Shown: piece by piece, positions 6,749 through 21,280 of the stretch
Position numbering within the stretch: position 1 is the stretch's first letter
Layout: each line of letters begins with the position of its first letter
The notes under the pieces: generated by a model
The model's database searches: none
What the model was told of the DNA's origin: nothing
The model's input: the letters and a program-made list of their open reading frames with translations, nothing else
Assembly (NCBI GenBank): GCA_947644575.1
Contig: CANRZX010000002.1
Coordinates: forward strand, 1 to 37,220
From: an uncultured Clostridia bacterium
GTDB taxonomy: Bacteria; Bacillota; Clostridia; Oscillospirales; Ruminococcaceae
Direction of reading: 5' to 3'
DNA length: 37,220 nucleotides
Position numbers and translations under genes: made by a program

Positions 6749-6818
6749 GTTTGGCGGCCCGCGCCGTCCGCGTCCGCGGAAAATTTTGAGGGAAATCTAA
6801 AAAACCTTGAAAAAGCCC

Positions 6819-6847
6819 TTGCAATTTTCGGGCAAATGGTGTATCAT
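6819..6847 (+). promoter_or_regulatory. Promoter aimed at tRNA-Asn (now at the partial copy)
   Basis: TTGCAA and TATCAT are separated by 17 bp. The expected start near 6854 is about 35 bp upstream of the tRNA-Asn 5' fragment, which suggests this was the native tRNA promoter before the insertion that moved the intact gene to 7280. Confidence 0.65.
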
Positions 6848-6887
6848 AAATAAGCGGTTTCCACGGAATGTGGGAAACACGGAATAA

Positions 6888-6914
6888 TCCTCCTTAGCTC
6901 AGTCGGTAGAGCAT
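6888..6914 (+). pseudogene. 5' fragment of tRNA-Asn (acceptor 5' strand and D-arm)
   Basis: These 27 nt are identical to the first 27 nt of the complete tRNA at 7280 (the match is 28 nt counting one upstream A). They cover the 5' acceptor strand TCCTCCT and the D-arm, then stop. The fragment lies directly behind the promoter-like sequence and cannot make a tRNA by itself. It is one arm of a direct repeat bracketing the AT-rich insert. Confidence 0.85.
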
Positions 6915-7278
6915 ATGGCACATAGGTAACCCAAAGACTGAGCATGGAATTTGATAGTGATTGTGCGATTTTTGGATACCACTTGCACTTGAATCCAAAA
7001 TTTCCTATTCTTCCAAAATTTCGCCGCGAATCCATCACTTGTCTGTGATGAATTCGCGGATGCAAATAGAATTTGCATCCGCGACAATCACTGCAAAATC
7101 GCAAATTTGTTTTTTCCCGCTAACGGTTAAGAGAGCGCAACCCATTCAATCCTTAATGGAAAACTAATGGAACACAGCGTTCCTTCCTATTTGAACATTA
7201 GGAGAGAGAAAAGTTCATTAGCTTATCCATCAAGGACAAAAAATCAATCGCCTCCTCACCCCAAGCGGAAAATATATG
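6915..7278. other. AT-rich, highly palindromic non-coding insert between the tRNA direct repeats
   Basis: About 364 bp, clearly more AT-rich than both sides. It holds two adjacent strong hairpins: arms CCGCGAAT-CATCAC / GTGATG-ATTCGCGG (7024-7059, one mismatch) and CGCGGATGCAAAT / ATTTGCATCCGCG (7055-7083, perfect), which share CGCGG. Longer complementary words flank them: AGTGATTGT at 6956 with ACAATCACT at 7084, and GCGATTTT at 6965 with AAAATCGC at 7095. Short ORFs here are antisense to the palindromes and look spurious. No protein-coding gene is supported. It could be a MITE-like repeat, an ncRNA or the remnant of a site-specific island. Confidence 0.6.
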
Positions 7279-7279
7279 A

Positions 7280-7355
7280 TCCTCCTTAGCTCAGTCGGTA
7301 GAGCATGCGGCTGTTAACCGCAGGGTCGTCTGTTCGAGCCAGACAGGGGGAGCCA
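7280..7355 (+). tRNA. tRNA-Asn (anticodon GTT), CCA encoded
   Basis: A full cloverleaf is visible: acceptor TCCTCCT pairs with AGGGGGA (one G-U), D-arm GCTC...GAGC, anticodon stem TGCGG / CCGCA with loop CTGTTAA (anticodon at 7313-7315), T-arm GTCTG-TTCGAGC-CAGAC, discriminator G and encoded CCA. Its own upstream DNA is the palindromic insert rather than an obvious promoter, so it may depend on read-through from 6819 and RNase P processing. Its 3' end borders the ICE, a common integration site. Confidence 0.97.
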
Positions 7356-7356
7356 G

Positions 7357-7397
7357 AAATGTCCGGTCGAAGCAATTTGACCGGACATTTTCCATTT
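7357..7397 (+). terminator. Terminator after tRNA-Asn
   Basis: A perfect 12-bp stem AAATGTCCGGTC / GACCGGACATTT with a 10-nt loop follows the tRNA CCA directly and is followed by a T-rich stretch. The word TCCGGACAT recurs at 7400, just beyond the hairpin. Confidence 0.75.
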
Positions 7398-7442
7398 TAT
7401 CCGGACATTCACACCATATATGGGTTCATAAGTTGATACTCT

Positions 7443-7479
7443 GCCCGGCTGGAACAAAACCAGCCGGGCTATTTTAATT
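7443..7479 (+). terminator. Strong terminator hairpin at the ICE left edge
   Basis: A perfect 10-bp stem GCCCGGCTGG / CCAGCCGGGC with loop AACAAAA is followed by TATTTTAATTT. It could insulate the ICE from chromosomal transcription. Confidence 0.75.
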
Positions 7480-13328: not shown

Positions 13329-13361
13329 GGGGGCTGCCCAAACGGGCGGCCCCCTATTTTG
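13329..13361 (+). terminator. Terminator between CAP lipoprotein and adhesin
   Basis: Stem GGGGGC-GCCC / GGGC-GCCCCC with loop AAAC and one internal mismatch, followed by TATTTTG. It lies directly before the GGAGGT of the adhesin gene, so it could also modulate entry into that gene. Confidence 0.75.
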
Positions 13362-13376
13362 TTTGGAGGTAAGGCA

Positions 13377-16300
13377 TTGAAGAAAACGAAAACAAGCCGA
13401 CGGATTCTCTCGGCGCTTTTAGCTGTGCTGTTGTGTTTTTCCTGTGTGGGAAGCCCGGCAGCATTCGCGGCGGGAGCGGACGGAGAAATCCCAGAATCAG
13501 TGGAATTTTTGGACGAAAATTCCACGAATGTGGAATCCGGCGCGGAGGACGCGCAAAACGCGGACGAAGAAAAACAGGAAAATCCGCGCGGTGACAGCGT
13601 TTCCGCCGATATGCCGCAGGGGGAACAGCCTGCCGAAAGTGTTCGGGAAGAGGGGGATAACCCCGGTAAAAGTGAAGTAGAGGCCAATTTAAGCGAAGCA
13701 GCGCAGGCATTTGTGGACGCTGTGTCCGCACTCGACCGCGACGCAATCCTGTCCACGGCCAATGCGTGGGGGCTGGCGCACCATGCATGGATACAGAATC
13801 AAGACGATCCCGATTTGACCGCCGCGTTGGATGTGGCCGTGGCAGCGTCCGACGAGGCTGCCGCCGCGCTCTATGCCGCCGAGGATCTGTTCTATGCAAT
13901 ACCCGAGGACGAACAGGAAACCGAAGCGGTGCAGGCGGCATATCTGTCCTTAATGTCAATTATCGCCGCCATGCACCTTGCAATGGATAATCCGACCGCG
14001 CCCACGGAGCCGACAGATCCCGGCACGGAGGGCGGCGACGAACCGCCCGCGGCGGATGAGATCGCCAACATCCTATATGGCGATTTGCCCGATGCGCCGA
14101 CCGGCAGCTATCTCGGCAGCTATGGCCTGCCCGTTGCGACGGGGAAAACGAAAATCGGTATCAGCGAGTGGACAGAAAACCTTTTGTCCGATACCGTGTA
14201 TCGCTTGGACATGGAGACGCTGAACAGCGACAGTCTTGCCGTTACTGTCCCCATGCAGACGGGCGAAAGCTATGCGATTGTTCCCATTTTAATGCAGGTG
14301 GAATACCCGGCCAACGGCAGCTCGTCCACGGTGATTTTGCCGGAGGGCGTAACGCTGCTCAGTCAGGACGGCAGCGGCAGGGACGCCGGCGCGGAGGAAA
14401 CGACGCGCATCCTCAATCAGACGTACCGCGAATCGTCTGCCGCCGTGTCTGGATTTTTTGTCCGGGCCTCGGAGGATTTTACGGTGCGGTTCATCTACTC
14501 CGCGTCTGACAGCACGACACTGGAAAAGAACCTCACTGTCCACATCGACAAGGACAATGCGCAGGACGTCACCCTCTATGGTTTGCCGACCGGCAGCAGC
14601 ACCTACGCCGAGCGGCCTACGCCCGCCGTCACGACCGGCAAGGTCACGCAAGTTCAAAAGGTAAATGGTACGTGGCTCGTGTGGTTCAATGGCATCGAGG
14701 CATATTGCTGCGATCACGGAAAATGGGCGGCTCCGGCGAATTGTCCGACTTACACCTACTCGCACACCTCCATTGTCGCGGGTTCGCAGTACACCCCCGG
14801 CGACCATTACAAAAATCAGGTCGAGATCTGGGGCGGCCTTGGGCAGCTTTCCCTCGACCTTGCACGTGGAGATGCAGCGCTGTTCTCGATAGATGACGCT
14901 AATACGTTCTATGACGATGTGCAGCGCTGGATCATGGAACACTATCCCGACAGCGTAGCGGCACAGGCATACCGGAACGCCGTCGATTCCCTGACGAACG
15001 GCGCAGTTCCCTACGCCACCGCGTCAGACTATTACTGCTACGTCTATGCCCCGCCCGCGGGCCTCGATTGGCAGCGCATCTCCGTCATCGGCCCGGAGGT
15101 GCCGAGTTTGTTTTACGCCAGTTGGGAGGCCGAACCGCAGACCGCCAATGGCGAGTTTGACTTTTCATTTACCGTGCAGGCCGACAAACAGCAGCTTGTG
15201 ACACAGGAGAAAGTGGACGGCGCGGTGATCGAGATCGAGCCGGTTATCACCTCCGGCACAATCAGCGGCGGGAACTGGTCGATCAGCCCCGCGGGGCGGC
15301 AGATCATCACGACAAGCGGCCACACAATAGACAACAGCTACCATGCCAATGGCGGTGACGGCACGGCAAGCTGGAGCCTGCACTACGCCGTGGAAAAAAC
15401 TTCGACGACCGTTTTGAGCGGAAACGCGGGGCCGTATCGCTCGCAGGCGGAGGCGGACGCGGCGGCGGAGAGCGCAAAGGCCGCGGCCATTGTCCAGCTC
15501 AAAGAAGAAGCGCAGAGAATGGTGGATGACGCTATCAGCAGCGCAAAAGAGGAGCTTGCGAGCCTGCAGTTTGAGTACATCGAAACCGGCGTGCCGCATG
15601 GGTTTGAACTCTATGCCGGTCCTTTCGGCAGCGAGCAGACGATCAGCGTCCCGGCCAATGTCAGCAAGGACTATATCATGCGTAACGATGAATGGTCTTT
15701 GCAGATCAAAATTGACAAGCGCGACAGCGAAACCGGCGAGCGCATCCGCGGCGCGGCGTCCTTTACTGTGTTTGAGTGGGATACCACGCTGCAGCGGTAC
15801 ATCCCCTATGGCGGGTACAACCAGTATGCCGTGGAGCGTCAGAGCGACGGCACCTATGCCGTTATCAACCACAGCAGTTATGCGGCCGCCGACCCTGCGC
15901 ACGGTACGATGTACTACACCCAGCGCAACGAGGGCAAATTCATCATCGTGGAAACGAACACGCCCTCCGGTTACTACGGAGACTGGACGGATGTTTCGTA
16001 CCCCGGCGCGGCCGGTTCGCCCAAAGGCAAGCGCGCGTACTTCGTCGAGATTAGCAAAGCCAACGACGGCAGCGTGATCTGGCTGGACAATGCGGCCTAC
16101 AATGCCGACATTGGTATTACCGACAACGGCGGCACGCTGCTCGATACCGGCGCGGGCGTTGTGACAGTAACGATCAGCGACAATCCTCTGCCCGGCAGCA
16201 AGACCTACATCACGGACAAGAGCGGGATCGCCGCCAATGAGGACGGGCGCACGGTGCTGCCGGTCGAGGATCAGTTTCTCAACGACCGCGTGCTGGGCGA

Positions 16301-19300
16301 GATTATCCTCTCAAAAGTAGACCTTGATGCCATGCGGTACCTCGCGGCAGGCAGCAACGGCAATTCCACGCTGGAGGGCGCGGTGTATGACCTCTACGCC
16401 GCCGAGGACATCCGCCACCCGGACGGCGTGACGGGCATCGTGGATTACAGTAAGATTGTGGAGGCGAGCGGCACACCGCTCTGGCACACGACCGTGCTGA
16501 CAAACGGTGGATGGGACAACAGCTATCTGCCTGTACTGCAAAAAGATCACCTTGTGGCAAGCGCAGCTATCAAGGACGGGAAACTGGCGTTTGCCAATCT
16601 CTATCTCGGCAAGTATTATCTGGTCGAGCGGGCAACCGGCCTTGTCCTGCCGCTGGATGGGAGCGGGCAGATTGTTCTGGCAGCAAGCTATCCCATTCTG
16701 AACAGGCAGCTCCAGCCGACCGGCAACACACGTCCGCTTGCACGAAATGGCGCGGGCGAATACACCGACTATGTGTACCGCAACCGCTATTCCGCCGTGG
16801 CCGAGGGCCGGGCATTGGATGGCACCCGCACCTTTGATGGCTATTATCTTTCGTTTGCCACCGGCTACCTCTGCGATGAGGTCAACCACTATGTCACACT
16901 CCATTACGGCAGCGAATCCGGCCTTGTGATTCGGCAGACCGTGCAGAGCGAGGACGAGGTGCTGAAATCCGGCTTTTCGATCAACAAGGTGGTCAGCACC
17001 ACCGGCCAGCCGGGGCCTGCCGTCAAGCTGGACGGCGCGGGCTTTACGGTCTATCGCGCGTCAGACTTGAGCAAAGAGGCGCTGTTCCAGAAAAATCCCG
17101 ATGGGACGTATCAGGTGCAGAGCATCCTCGACGCCTATCGTGCGGACAGCTATGATCAGGACACGCCCAAGTACGATTTTTCGAGCGAGACACAGGCCAT
17201 TGCCACCATGTATGAGGGCAGTCAGGCGGCAGTGGACGGCTACAACCGCAGCCTGACCTCCACCGCAGACAACGCAAACGGCAGCGGCACAGGCTGGGTG
17301 GCCACGGACAGGCCGAACGAGTACAAACTCAGCGAGATTTTCACCAACGATGAGGGCATCTTGCGTGTGGACGGTCTTGCCTACGGGCAATATTTAGTGG
17401 TCGAGACAACCGTGCCGCGCGACGTGTTTCAAGCCGCGCCCTTTGTGGTCACCATCGATGCCAGAGCCCCGCAGAGCGTGTTCTGTATGCCGCAGGGCAG
17501 CGTCACCATGCCGAGCGGCAGCTACATGACGTTTAATATTTTAGACGAAGAACTTGAGGGATATTTGCAGCTCATCAAGGTGGATGCCGAAACCGGCAAG
17601 GCCGTGATGTTGGCACACACGTCGTTCTCTATTTTCAGTATTTTGGAGGACGGCAGCCTTGAAATCATCAAGATGAACGATCCAGCCAGCGGCAATGCCA
17701 CCGCCAAAACCAGTGTGTTCTATACGGATGCAGACGGCCTGATGAAAACGCCCGAAAAGCTGCCGTTGGGCCGCTACCGCGTAGTCGAGGTACAGGGGCC
17801 GGAGGGCTTTTTCAACGATGAAGCCTACCATGTGGATTTTGAAATTACCTCCGAACGCATCTATGAGGTGATCGGGTCGAGCGCCGACAGCATGGATGAC
17901 TATATCGCCACGGAGCGGTATGTCAACCGCGAGACGCTGGGCCGGCTCACGATTCGTAAGCTGGGCGAGGTGCTGACCGGTTTTGAGAACGGCCGCTTTA
18001 TCTATGAGACAGAACCGCTGGCCGGGGCAGTCTACGAGATTCGGGCGCACGGCGACGTCTATACGGGTGATCACCAGACCGACGCAAACGGCAATCGAAC
18101 CCTCTGGTATGCGGACGGCGATCTTGTGGCGACGGTGACAACCGGCGACGCTGGGCAAATTGACGAGGTTGACTTTGCGCCGACGCGCACGCAGGCGACC
18201 TATGATTTCCTTTCCGTTACCCATACCGGCGCAAAGGGCGAGGTGACGATCACCCTCCCGCTGGGCAGCTATGATGTGCGCGAGGTGCAGGCCCCCTACG
18301 GCTACACACTGAGCGGCGACAGCTACACCGTGACCTTTGGCTGGGACAACCAGACGAATGATTTGGTGCTGGCGAAAACCATCGTGAGCCATGCGGACGG
18401 CAAGGACAAGGAAACCGTGTACAGGATCATCAATGTCAAGGACGCTTCGGACAAGCAGATTGGCGGCCAGAAGCTCGTATTTGAAAACGACCGCGTTTTG
18501 CCCGTGATCGAAAAAGGGCGTGTCGGCGTCGGCCTCTACAAGCTGGATCGAGATTCGGTGGGATTCACCGATGACCGGCCGTTTAAGGATGGGCTGAAAA
18601 CAGACGCCAGCCTCCTTGCAGGCGGCAGCAACAAGGCAAAGATCCCTGCGGGCGCGGTTCCGGTCGAGGCCGCGGTCTATGAACTGTATACCGCCGATGA
18701 AATCTACAGTGCGGACGGCAAGCTGCTGGCTGAAGCCGACACATTGCTCGGCACGGTCACCACAGGCAAGGATGGCCTCGCGGCGTTCGGCATCGACGTC
18801 CCGATCCGCGGCGAGCAGTATGGTGTCAGTAATGCGCACAATGCCATCACCAACAGCGGCAAATACTACCTGCTCGAAAAGTCTGCCCCGGAGGGCTATC
18901 TCATCGAGCAGAGCTGCATCCCCGTAGAGTTCACTTACGAGGGGCAAACAATCGCTTGGCAGATCGTGGACTGCCTGCACACAGATAAGGCTACTGAGGT
19001 CGAGATCGACAAGCGTGGCTTTGCGGACGGCGACATCGCCGACAGCTTTGCCCTGCCCGGCGCAACGCTGACGGTAACCGACTGGCGCGGCAAGGTGGTA
19101 GATGAGTGGACGAGCGGTGATACCGTACACATCATCCGTGGGCTGGCGCTGGATCACGATTTTGCCGGGCACGACGACCTCGGCCATATCTACACGCTGA
19201 CCGAGATACGCCCCGCAGACGGCTACACGACCGCGCGCTCCATCCGGTTCAAGCTGGTGCAGGCACGGGATGAAAAAGGCGGGTATCTCCAGAAAACGGA

Positions 19301-20450
19301 AGTGTGGGTATTGGAAGAAACGCCGAGAGTGGACATCATTTCCGGCAGCATCATTTCCCCCGCCGCGTTTGCGGACGATGAACCGCAGACTGGCATCCTT
19401 GCCAGCATCAAAGGAGCGGTGCTCTCCTTTGTGAACAAGCTGACCGGCACGGCGGATGAAAATTCTGTCGCGGCCGAAACCGTCCAGCAGGCCGACGTAA
19501 TTGCCGACTGGCAGATCGCGGGCGGCACGCTGATTGTTTCCTTTACCAAAGAAGCCACGGACGCCGCTATCGCAAAATGTCTGCGCGAGAGCGACTTTGC
19601 CGCATACGAGTTCAGCCATGTATTCCTTGAAAACGGCACTGCGCCCAGCTTCTTTGCAGACAAACAGGTGCAGGATAAACCGGAAAATACCGAGATTACC
19701 TACACCGCCGAATGGACGCTCTGCGAAACCGTTACGATGCTGGACGCGCTGACGGTGATCCGCATTTGCAAGACCGACATCACGACGCACGAGGAAATTG
19801 TAGGCGCTGCTTTGCAGATCACAGGCAAGGACGGCAAGACCATCGAAGAATGGATTTCCACAGAGGAACCGCATCTGATCGAGGGCAAGCTGATTGCAGG
19901 CGAAACCTATATCCTGACCGAAACCCTTGCTCCGACTGCACAGGGCTATGTTCCTGCCACATCTATCGAATTTGTTGTCGAGGATGACGGCAAGGTACAG
20001 ACGGTTTTCATGCAGGATGACTACACGAAACTGAGCATCAGAAAAACCGATATTGCCACCGGCGAAGAACTCCCCGGCGCGTCGCTCCAGATCATGGATG
20101 AGGACGGCAAGATTGTGGCGGAATGGGTTTCGACCGATACGCCGCACAGCATCGAGCGCCTCCCGGTTGGCAAGTATACGCTCACCGAGACAAGCGCCCC
20201 TGCCGGATATTTAGTGGCCGAAAGTATCACCTTTGAGGTGGCCGCAACCGGCGAGATCCAGCGCGTGGTGATGCAGGACGAGCGCGTCCCCGCCCCACCC
20301 GAAACGCCTGTTCCCCAGCAGCCGACTCCGCCCGTCCCCAAGACAGGTGACATCCCGTGGCTGCCCGCCATGCTGGGCGGCATCGCGGCTGCGGCACTGC
20401 TTGGGCTTGCTGTGTGGCGGCATCGTGACAAACGCCGTGGGGATCGCTGA
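13377..20450 (+). CDS. Giant CnaB-repeat surface adhesin with VPKTG sorting signal
   Basis: 2357 residues from TTG 13377 (GGAGGT 7 nt upstream). A signal peptide (KKTKTSRRILSALLAVLL to AFAAG, about 1-32) is followed by an acidic Glu/Asn-rich spacer and a helical segment (about 105-205). A possible thioester-type domain has YCCDHGKW near 443 and VQRWIMEH near 514, then a coiled coil (about 690-735). About nine prealbumin-like CnaB units begin near 772, 972, 1198, 1395, 1522, 1719, 1874, 2126 and 2219, with Lys-containing first strands (IKIDKRDSETG, LSIRKTDIATGEELPGA) and E-boxes (LTETSAPAGY), as expected for isopeptide-locked stalks. It ends with VPKTGD, a hydrophobic helix and a basic tail. 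The coupled sortase next door is the likely anchoring enzyme. Host attachment or mating-pair contact is inferred. Confidence 0.92.
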   Translation: MKKTKTSRRILSALLAVLLCFSCVGSPAAFAAGADGEIPESVEFLDENSTNVESGAEDAQNADEEKQENPRGDSVSADMPQGEQPAESVREEGDNPGKSEVEANLSEAAQAFVDAVSALDRDAILSTANAWGLAHHAWIQNQDDPDLTAALDVAVAASDEAAAALYAAEDLFYAIPEDEQETEAVQAAYLSLMSIIAAMHLAMDNPTAPTEPTDPGTEGGDEPPAADEIANILYGDLPDAPTGSYLGSYGLPVATGKTKIGISEWTENLLSDTVYRLDMETLNSDSLAVTVPMQTGESYAIVPILMQVEYPANGSSSTVILPEGVTLLSQDGSGRDAGAEETTRILNQTYRESSAAVSGFFVRASEDFTVRFIYSASDSTTLEKNLTVHIDKDNAQDVTLYGLPTGSSTYAERPTPAVTTGKVTQVQKVNGTWLVWFNGIEAYCCDHGKWAAPANCPTYTYSHTSIVAGSQYTPGDHYKNQVEIWGGLGQLSLDLARGDAALFSIDDANTFYDDVQRWIMEHYPDSVAAQAYRNAVDSLTNGAVPYATASDYYCYVYAPPAGLDWQRISVIGPEVPSLFYASWEAEPQTANGEFDFSFTVQADKQQLVTQEKVDGAVIEIEPVITSGTISGGNWSISPAGRQIITTSGHTIDNSYHANGGDGTASWSLHYAVEKTSTTVLSGNAGPYRSQAEADAAAESAKAAAIVQLKEEAQRMVDDAISSAKEELASLQFEYIETGVPHGFELYAGPFGSEQTISVPANVSKDYIMRNDEWSLQIKIDKRDSETGERIRGAASFTVFEWDTTLQRYIPYGGYNQYAVERQSDGTYAVINHSSYAAADPAHGTMYYTQRNEGKFIIVETNTPSGYYGDWTDVSYPGAAGSPKGKRAYFVEISKANDGSVIWLDNAAYNADIGITDNGGTLLDTGAGVVTVTISDNPLPGSKTYITDKSGIAANEDGRTVLPVEDQFLNDRVLGEIILSKVDLDAMRYLAAGSNGNSTLEGAVYDLYAAEDIRHPDGVTGIVDYSKIVEASGTPLWHTTVLTNGGWDNSYLPVLQKDHLVASAAIKDGKLAFANLYLGKYYLVERATGLVLPLDGSGQIVLAASYPILNRQLQPTGNTRPLARNGAGEYTDYVYRNRYSAVAEGRALDGTRTFDGYYLSFATGYLCDEVNHYVTLHYGSESGLVIRQTVQSEDEVLKSGFSINKVVSTTGQPGPAVKLDGAGFTVYRASDLSKEALFQKNPDGTYQVQSILDAYRADSYDQDTPKYDFSSETQAIATMYEGSQAAVDGYNRSLTSTADNANGSGTGWVATDRPNEYKLSEIFTNDEGILRVDGLAYGQYLVVETTVPRDVFQAAPFVVTIDARAPQSVFCMPQGSVTMPSGSYMTFNILDEELEGYLQLIKVDAETGKAVMLAHTSFSIFSILEDGSLEIIKMNDPASGNATAKTSVFYTDADGLMKTPEKLPLGRYRVVEVQGPEGFFNDEAYHVDFEITSERIYEVIGSSADSMDDYIATERYVNRETLGRLTIRKLGEVLTGFENGRFIYETEPLAGAVYEIRAHGDVYTGDHQTDANGNRTLWYADGDLVATVTTGDAGQIDEVDFAPTRTQATYDFLSVTHTGAKGEVTITLPLGSYDVREVQAPYGYTLSGDSYTVTFGWDNQTNDLVLAKTIVSHADGKDKETVYRIINVKDASDKQIGGQKLVFENDRVLPVIEKGRVGVGLYKLDRDSVGFTDDRPFKDGLKTDASLLAGGSNKAKIPAGAVPVEAAVYELYTADEIYSADGKLLAEADTLLGTVTTGKDGLAAFGIDVPIRGEQYGVSNAHNAITNSGKYYLLEKSAPEGYLIEQSCIPVEFTYEGQTIAWQIVDCLHTDKATEVEIDKRGFADGDIADSFALPGATLTVTDWRGKVVDEWTSGDTVHIIRGLALDHDFAGHDDLGHIYTLTEIRPADGYTTARSIRFKLVQARDEKGGYLQKTEVWVLEETPRVDIISGSIISPAAFADDEPQTGILASIKGAVLSFVNKLTGTADENSVAAETVQQADVIADWQIAGGTLIVSFTKEATDAAIAKCLRESDFAAYEFSHVFLENGTAPSFFADKQVQDKPENTEITYTAEWTLCETVTMLDALTVIRICKTDITTHEEIVGAALQITGKDGKTIEEWISTEEPHLIEGKLIAGETYILTETLAPTAQGYVPATSIEFVVEDDGKVQTVFMQDDYTKLSIRKTDIATGEELPGASLQIMDEDGKIVAEWVSTDTPHSIERLPVGKYTLTETSAPAGYLVAESITFEVAATGEIQRVVMQDERVPAPPETPVPQQPTPPVPKTGDIPWLPAMLGGIAAAALLGLAVWRHRDKRRGDR

Positions 20451-21280
20451 TGCGGGCATTCGGCAAAGGCTTTCTCATCGGCACTGTCTGCGTTTGCGTG
20501 CTGGCTCTTGTTTTGCTGTGCGTTCTTCGACCGAAACTCACCACCCATGAAGCGGACGTTTTGAAAACAGCATACACACAGCCCGGCCCCGGAGCGAACA
20601 GCCCCGGGGCCGATTCTTTACCGGCTGAGAAAGAGGACGCACCAGCGCTCGATTTCGCCGCGCTCCGGGCAGACTATCCGGACATCTGCGCATGGCTCAC
20701 AATCCCCGGCACACTGGTGGACTATCCCGTCCTGCAAAGCAGCCCGGAAAGCTCTGAATACTACCTCCGGCGAAACTACAAGGGCGAATACCGCATGGCG
20801 GGCAGCTTGTTCTTTCAGGCCGATTGCTCGCCGGGAAGCCGGTGCCTGATCGTTTACGGCCACAACATGGCCGACGGTACCATGTTCGGATGCTTGACAA
20901 AATATCTTGATGCTGCCTATTGCGGCGAACATGAGCAAATCACATTGCAGACGATGGATGGTGTCCGGCAATACACGGTTGCGGCGGTGCTGGAAACCGA
21001 CATCAGCCGCGTGCCCTTCAACCGCACCATGTTTGAGAATGACGCTGGCTTTTTGGATCAAGCGCAGAGTTTGCTTGATGCCTCCACTGTAAAAACCGGC
21101 GTCCCCATCACCGCCGACAGCCACCTGCTGGTGTTGGTGACGTGTTCGTACTCATGGCCGGATGCAAGAGTCGTTGTCGTTGCGGTGGAGAAAGGAACGT
21201 ATATCCAAAAAACAACTACCCAATTTCGCAAATGTCATGGAGTCGTCATCCAGAAAAGGAGGGAAAATTTTCCGCAATGA
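20450..21280 (+). CDS. Class B sortase
   Basis: 276 residues. The start overlaps the adhesin stop (TGATG), implying coupled translation. An N-terminal membrane anchor (about 8-27) and a linker precede the sortase fold: AWLTIPGTLVDYPVLQS, the catalytic His in VYGHNMADGTMFG, the catalytic Cys in LVLVTCSYSW and the catalytic Arg in DARVVVVA. The long YYLRRNYKGEY segment and the order of motifs fit class B. It should cleave the VPKTG signal of the adjacent adhesin and attach it to peptidoglycan; the motif resembles the (S/P)PxTG sites used by class B sortases of clostridia. Confidence 0.93.
   Translation: MRAFGKGFLIGTVCVCVLALVLLCVLRPKLTTHEADVLKTAYTQPGPGANSPGADSLPAEKEDAPALDFAALRADYPDICAWLTIPGTLVDYPVLQSSPESSEYYLRRNYKGEYRMAGSLFFQADCSPGSRCLIVYGHNMADGTMFGCLTKYLDAAYCGEHEQITLQTMDGVRQYTVAAVLETDISRVPFNRTMFENDAGFLDQAQSLLDASTVKTGVPITADSHLLVLVTCSYSWPDARVVVVAVEKGTYIQKTTTQFRKCHGVVIQKRRENFPQ

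Follow-up and report, generated by a model that had tools for sequence, protein, structure and literature searches.

Islands that insert into tRNA genes are classically moved by tyrosine integrases, and their crossover lies at the anticodon loop, the T loop or the junction of the T and acceptor stems (PMC4383910). According to a 2015 survey, serine integrases were not known to target tRNA genes (PMC4383910). No case of a serine integrase at a tRNA gene appears in the available parts of four other papers (PMC8637289, PMC10654092, PMC12884075, PMC12424338), and tRNA is never mentioned in Durrant 2022 (PMC10083194); most subscription papers and all preprints lay outside this scope, and priority is not assured. 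Here, we describe a tRNA-Asn locus in a 37,220-nucleotide stretch of DNA (the window) from an uncultured Clostridia bacterium. Sequence comparison indicates that the locus is very probably the left end of an integrative conjugative element (ICE) that a large serine recombinase (LSR) directs into the D-arm of tRNA-Asn genes and that carries a replacement tRNA-Asn.

The locus is marked by an exact 28-nt direct repeat (6887-6914 and 7279-7306, spacing 392; 33 of 36 positions over an extended stretch). Such a repeat far exceeds chance expectation in 37 kb, and it is mostly the 5′ half common to two tRNA-Asn genes. Upstream of the first copy lies the sole sigma-70-like promoter match between 6600 and 7800 (TTGCAA-17-TATCAT, 6819-6847, plus strand), which we take to be the host tRNA-Asn promoter and the probable driver of the carried tRNA. 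The second copy opens into one complete tRNA-Asn(GUU) (7280-7355, plus strand; Rfam 62 bits). On the same strand follow a hairpin (7356-7391) that resembles the hairpin after the host 3′ half and a second, GC-rich, terminator-like hairpin with T-rich sequence behind it (7443-7469). An earlier note on this DNA had given these positions for the repeat and the promoter as well as for the partial and the whole tRNA, and had described the insert between the repeats as geneless and AT-rich. This description stands: no ORF of at least 90 aa occurs between the repeat copies, and the GC content there is 40%, against 63% in the left flank and 59% in the right. Among known structured RNAs (Rfam), the tRNA alone scored above the cut-off in the insert. 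The rest of that insert, between the left attachment site (attL, defined below) and the carried tRNA, is an untranslated, AT-rich spacer (6933-7279, plus strand) of unusual length (370 nt, counted from the core), and no other copy of it was found. It contains a perfect 14-bp inverted repeat at 7054-7084 (TCGCGGATGCAAAT) inside a weaker 16-bp pair (6949-6964/7084-7099).

When the same genome was searched with positions 6780-7440, the only strong match besides the locus itself was to another contig (C4), which holds the 3′ part of a tRNA-Asn. This 3′ part begins GGTAGAGCATGCGG and is 85% alike over about 130 bp, downstream hairpin included. An LSR of 536 aa (P0001; C4:29854-31461, minus strand) adjoins it and marks the right end of the element, outside the window, with attR at ~C4:29750. 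As LSRs we counted single proteins of ~500-600 aa with catalytic resolvase and recombinase domains (and a zinc ribbon), and P0001 belongs to this class by its Resolvase (4e-18) and Recombinase (6.5e-10) domains, with a zinc ribbon just under the cut-off (21.9 bits).

The sequence before the C4 3′ half, GGGTATACAATGTGCTATATGGT, and the left arm of the element, AGCATATGGCACATAGGTAACCC (6910-6932, plus strand, directly after the 5′ half in the window), form an inverted match at 17 of 23 positions, symmetric about a common AG. Symmetry this good was found in 1 of 200,000 random pairs drawn from the element. The attP of the window element is an imperfect inverted repeat around a short core, as LSR elements require, and its arms about AG have the anatomy expected of an LSR attP. 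In three other genomes (G473, G688, G439) the arms match at 19-20 of 23 positions about AG; the arms in G525 and Gemmiger gave no symmetric match in this simple symmetry test. From the symmetry here and in these three genomes, we infer a crossover at the dinucleotide AG at 6908-6909 (plus strand; D-arm, tRNA positions A21-G22), and therefore only 22 nt of the left repeat copy (6888-6909, plus strand) are host tRNA, a scar of the disrupted gene that the joining test below also supports. The earlier note had read the first 27 nt of tRNA-Asn in this copy. The fragment is real, and its last part is not host tRNA: the identity beyond the crossover, up to 6914, is coincidental, with AGCAT present in both copies.

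When the 5′ half in the window was joined in silico to the 3′ half on C4, ARAGORN recognized a complete tRNA-Asn, with promoter and hairpin, while either junction alone gave no tRNA. Halves joined in two other genomes (G007 and G208) also gave complete tRNAs. Because the joined flanks rebuild one tRNA-Asn and neither junction does so alone, the tRNA at 7280 lies inside the element and replaces the destroyed gene. Both junctions are thus located, with 6888-6932 in the window as the putative attL and C4 around 29750 as the putative attR of one element. They lie on two different contigs of a fragmented assembly, and the proposed linkage is based on the logic of the junctions.

Everything to the right of 6909 in the window is element: the spacer, the carried tRNA-Asn with its hairpins, and the conjugation genes. 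The body (7766-37220, plus strand, to the contig end) encodes an actin-like protein, a C5 methylase, an S-adenosylmethionine synthetase, a pilin-like protein and sortase, MobC/NikA, a relaxase (4.4e-37), a VirD4-like coupling protein of the CD1115 family (1.8e-137) and a TrbC-like pilin. A conjugative gene set is present, with relaxase, coupling protein and a type IV secretion gene (the TrbC-like pilin, which scores below the Pfam cut-off), and by this gene content the LSR element would also be an ICE. The conjugative element is at least 33 kb long. The site-specific integration at the tRNA-Asn 5′ half proposed in the earlier note is retained, and its size of 364 bp is not, as this segment is only the left tip of the element. 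The cargo includes a 2363-aa ORF (13359-20450) with the appearance of a large pilin-like surface protein, followed by the sortase (20450-21280). No tRNA 5′ half lies near or upstream of relatives of the actin-like protein; we therefore assigned the carried tRNA to the integration module and rejected its membership of the ICE backbone.

The intact tRNA is not a fresh copy of the broken gene, because their T-stems differ by two compensatory pair changes (GTTGG/CCAAC in the host 3′ half on C4, GTCTG/CAGAC in the intact copy). The repeat is made of two different tRNA-Asn genes, and not of a duplication produced by the insertion. This contradicts the proposal that duplication of the 5′ end had restored the tRNA, as the intact tRNA travels inside the element; function is nevertheless kept by a second complete copy, and the geometry is opposite to the usual 3′-end restoration, both as the earlier note had it. 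The 3′ flank of the carried tRNA-Asn resembles that of the broken gene in the same genome (in G000 and in G007), and given this likeness gene conversion or a local origin of the carried tRNA is possible. A single intact tRNA-Asn core was found in this genome, as in each of G001, G004, G005, G008 and G009. tRNA-Asn therefore appears to be single-copy, although a second copy could lie in the part missing from an assembly of 95% completeness. Without the gene, the cell would presumably die.

The same arrangement occurs on a single contig of G007, a member of the same genus with the same chromosomal neighbour gene. The promoter, the tRNA-Asn 5′ half and a related arm come first; a complete tRNA-Asn lies 102 nt further along, and ~10.4 kb of cargo separates it from a decayed 3′ half (attR). 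By appearance, the cargo of this element (L041, G007:C33, 2400-13000) comprises NACHT-like NTPases, KAP-like NTPases with QatA/PifA hits, and WYL-type proteins, and its ORF list contains no recombinase or LSR; it is possibly a non-autonomous, defence-carrying relative moved by the LSR of another element. G002 holds a third version of the tRNA-Asn arrangement. An uninterrupted tRNA-Asn with a close promoter was found in five genomes (G001, G004, G005, G008 and G009), and the uninterrupted gene of Subdoligranulum variabile is preceded by a promoter region resembling that of the window.

Relatives of the LSR (38-47% identical) are present in 27 of 394 genomes of the order, this genome included, and also in other orders of the class. 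Most are located at tRNA genes in one of two layouts, with the LSR either beside the 3′ half, as here, or beside a carried intact tRNA that is preceded by scars. For 30 of the 103 intact tRNAs in the fetched loci, one to three 5′-half copies lie within 600 nt upstream, a proportion that is not a genome-wide rate because the loci were fetched for their LSRs or tRNAs. A reversed-sequence control gave 0 such copies. The scar-preceded tRNAs are essentially only Ala and Asn: 10 of 12 for Ala(cgc), 8 of 13 for Ala(ggc) and 10 of 21 for Asn, plus a single Phe case that may reflect a neighbouring tRNA. The LSRs concerned form a clade of their own, apart from the remaining LSRs of the genus, and group according to the tRNA that they target (12 label changes versus 29.5 when shuffled), and distant LSRs have hardly any such tRNA fragments. 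The earlier note had held that the same arrangement at many tRNAs without empty sites would argue against its reading. Only half of this pattern is seen: many Ala and Asn tRNAs do show the arrangement, but one and the same site is filled in G174 and unfilled in G329, and there are also the uninterrupted tRNA-Asn genes. Neither the LSR nor the attL sequence was found in viral contigs, and a plasmid search matched the tRNA-Asn only. On pRUMAL02 of Ruminococcus albus 7 (L179, ~106.2-107.9 kb), an LSR is followed by a tRNA-Asn 3′ half whose 5′ half is nowhere on the plasmid, apparently a translocated element end. An uncultured Firmicutes contig carries two 5′-half-like tRNA fragments downstream of an LSR (L037, 4587-4760).

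Successive integrations can be followed at a tRNA-Ala. In G329, an element X is uninterrupted (left arm, spacer, complete tRNA-Ala, hairpin and LSR-side flank). In G174, the tRNA-Ala of X is split by an element Y, whose arms match each other at 17 of 23 positions, and the two halves lie ~59 kb apart on one contig. Rejoined, they match G329 at 237 of 240 positions and give a complete tRNA-Ala in ARAGORN. This comparison shows that the tRNA belongs to the element and is the target of the next one, and that scars record successive integrations. A Y-like scar lies upstream of X in G329, and the order of arrival was therefore reversed there. G208 contains three scars together with three 3′ halves, and LSRs lie between them. 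On G174:C3 (86.4-90.7 kb, L124), scar arrays of tRNA-Ala(cgc) and tRNA-Ala(ggc) diverge ~4 kb apart, with three 5′ halves each. Two tRNA-Asn 3′ halves lie 187 bp apart beside an LSR in G439 (C1, 55112 and 55299; L140), the second with a decayed T-stem, and are possibly stacked attR scars.

In 19 of 26 arrays, the 100 nt that precede the oldest scar contain a sigma-70 promoter (p<=0.02 against shuffles), several with perfect consensus, and none of the 26 has a promoter at this threshold in its spacer. Seven arrays (L064, L078, L081, L195, L153, L158, L166) lack a significant promoter upstream of the scars. Within the spacer of the window, the best internal promoter score was no better than shuffles. 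Most simply, this would mean that the carried tRNA lacks a promoter and that transcription from the promoter of the victim gene reaches it across the scar; such read-through would also explain its place just inside that end. The earlier note had expected expression through the insert from the original promoter, which is probable, and had named a separate promoter within the insert as the contrary case; spacer promoters do not rise above chance. In four tRNA-Ala elements (L081, L043, L058, L078) the carried tRNA is enclosed by perfect inverted repeats of 10-17 nt that could form a processing stalk. A processing stem around all carried tRNAs was rejected, as it was found in only 4 of 26.

The att sites, the symmetry of their arms, the restored gene, the carried tRNA, the stacking and the promoter position are all features of the sequence, and they suggest the following mechanism. 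The LSR, if active, would join attP (GGGTATACAATGTGCTATATGGT-AG-AGCATATGGCACATAGGTAACCC) to the tRNA gene at the AG in the D-loop/D-stem, cutting the gene into its promoter and 5′ half (attL, window 6819-6909) and its 3′ half (attR, contig C4). The element carries, immediately inside its left end, a complete tRNA-Asn that has terminator-like hairpins and lacks a clear promoter. Once the element is integrated, transcription from the old promoter would run through scar and spacer into the carried tRNA, and normal 5′ and 3′ processing would release it. As the carried tRNA has the same D-arm, it would be a new landing site; with repeated use, 5′-half scars would build up in arrays upstream, and 3′ halves would remain between the stacked elements. 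From these features we infer that the LSR recombines DNA, that transcription reads through, that the transcript is processed and that the gene is essential.

Three other explanations were weighed. The reading of the earlier note, in which a tiny 364-bp site-specific insertion duplicated the tRNA 5′ end and restored the tRNA, would make the conjugative genes on the right a separate element. It would fit the repeat pair and its spacing, and the spacers elsewhere, mostly 40-200 nt, do resemble small inserts. We consider it very unlikely, because the missing 3′ half sits beside an LSR on another contig and is paired to the left half by arm symmetry, because intact copy and broken gene differ in the T-stem, and because, on single contigs of G007 and G208/G174, many kb with cargo genes separate the 3′ half from this locus's counterpart of the 5′ half. 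A 364-bp mobile insert was also rejected on its distribution, since the other copies that the earlier note had suggested looking for are absent from 394 genomes of the order.

The position of the 3′ half, at the far end of the element and not next to the 5′ half, also weighs against an ordinary tandem duplication of tRNA-Asn, with one copy decayed to a 5′ fragment and the element nearby by chance. Tandem tRNA copies are common, and the carried and the broken gene of the same genome have a downstream hairpin in common. Yet the breakpoint falls at the same AG in unrelated genomes and is followed by LSR-type inverted arms, and the pattern, found almost exclusively at Ala and Asn tRNAs, follows a single LSR clade, which together make such a duplication extremely improbable. 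Finally, the left 5′ half may be seen as a functional regulatory RNA or decoy (a tRNA half) kept by selection, and not as a scar. In many genomes a strong promoter stands upstream of it, so these fragments would be transcribed. Their number varies from zero to three, however, and the sequence past the cut changes with each element arm; integration fully explains why the 5′ half exists. We judge selection for such an RNA to be a highly improbable origin, and a secondary role may exist.

Integration of an LSR-moved element that carries its own tRNA would add serine integrases to the mobile elements that target tRNA genes. It would also be a new answer to the breaking of an essential gene, namely a whole promoterless replacement combined with the victim's promoter. 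It is quite possible, if somewhat short of probable, that this lineage of LSR elements makes the host dependent on it: by destroying an essential single-copy tRNA gene and supplying a promoterless replacement, it would turn any loss other than precise excision into the death of the cell. Each replacement, possibly different in sequence, would be a self-renewing landing pad and would put a foreign tRNA in the place of the host's. The mechanism predicts a kind of addiction to the element. It would also explain the arrays of tRNA 5′ halves near tRNA genes, as a readable log of successive integrations, and would make available a family of LSRs in many gut Clostridia whose target sites are short and conserved.

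The element can be compared with three described groups. It shares the relaxase, MobC/NikA, the CD1115-family VirD4 and the TrbC-like pilin with clostridial conjugative elements that carry this VirD4 family; it differs from them in its integration module, a tRNA-D-arm LSR with a carried tRNA, and relatives of its actin-like backbone protein occur elsewhere without this module. Like the tRNA islands and ICEs with tyrosine integrases in the Islander set (PMC4383910), it inserts site-specifically into a tRNA gene whose function is preserved by element sequence, a displaced tRNA fragment marks one end, and tandem stacking is possible. In contrast to that set, it brings a whole tRNA inside its end instead of a partial copy in attP, and leaves both halves of the old gene. 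Two tested features show that it is not a classical tRNA island: the recombinase at its end is an LSR, with the crossover at the AG of the D-arm and not at the anticodon loop, the T loop or the T/acceptor junction, and neither junction is a tRNA, the intact gene being 370 nt inside. With LSR elements of the phiC31 and TP901-1 type it shares the domain order of the recombinase, the inverted-repeat attP, the short core and simple attL and attR sites, whereas its target is a tRNA gene that is apparently single-copy in the genus.
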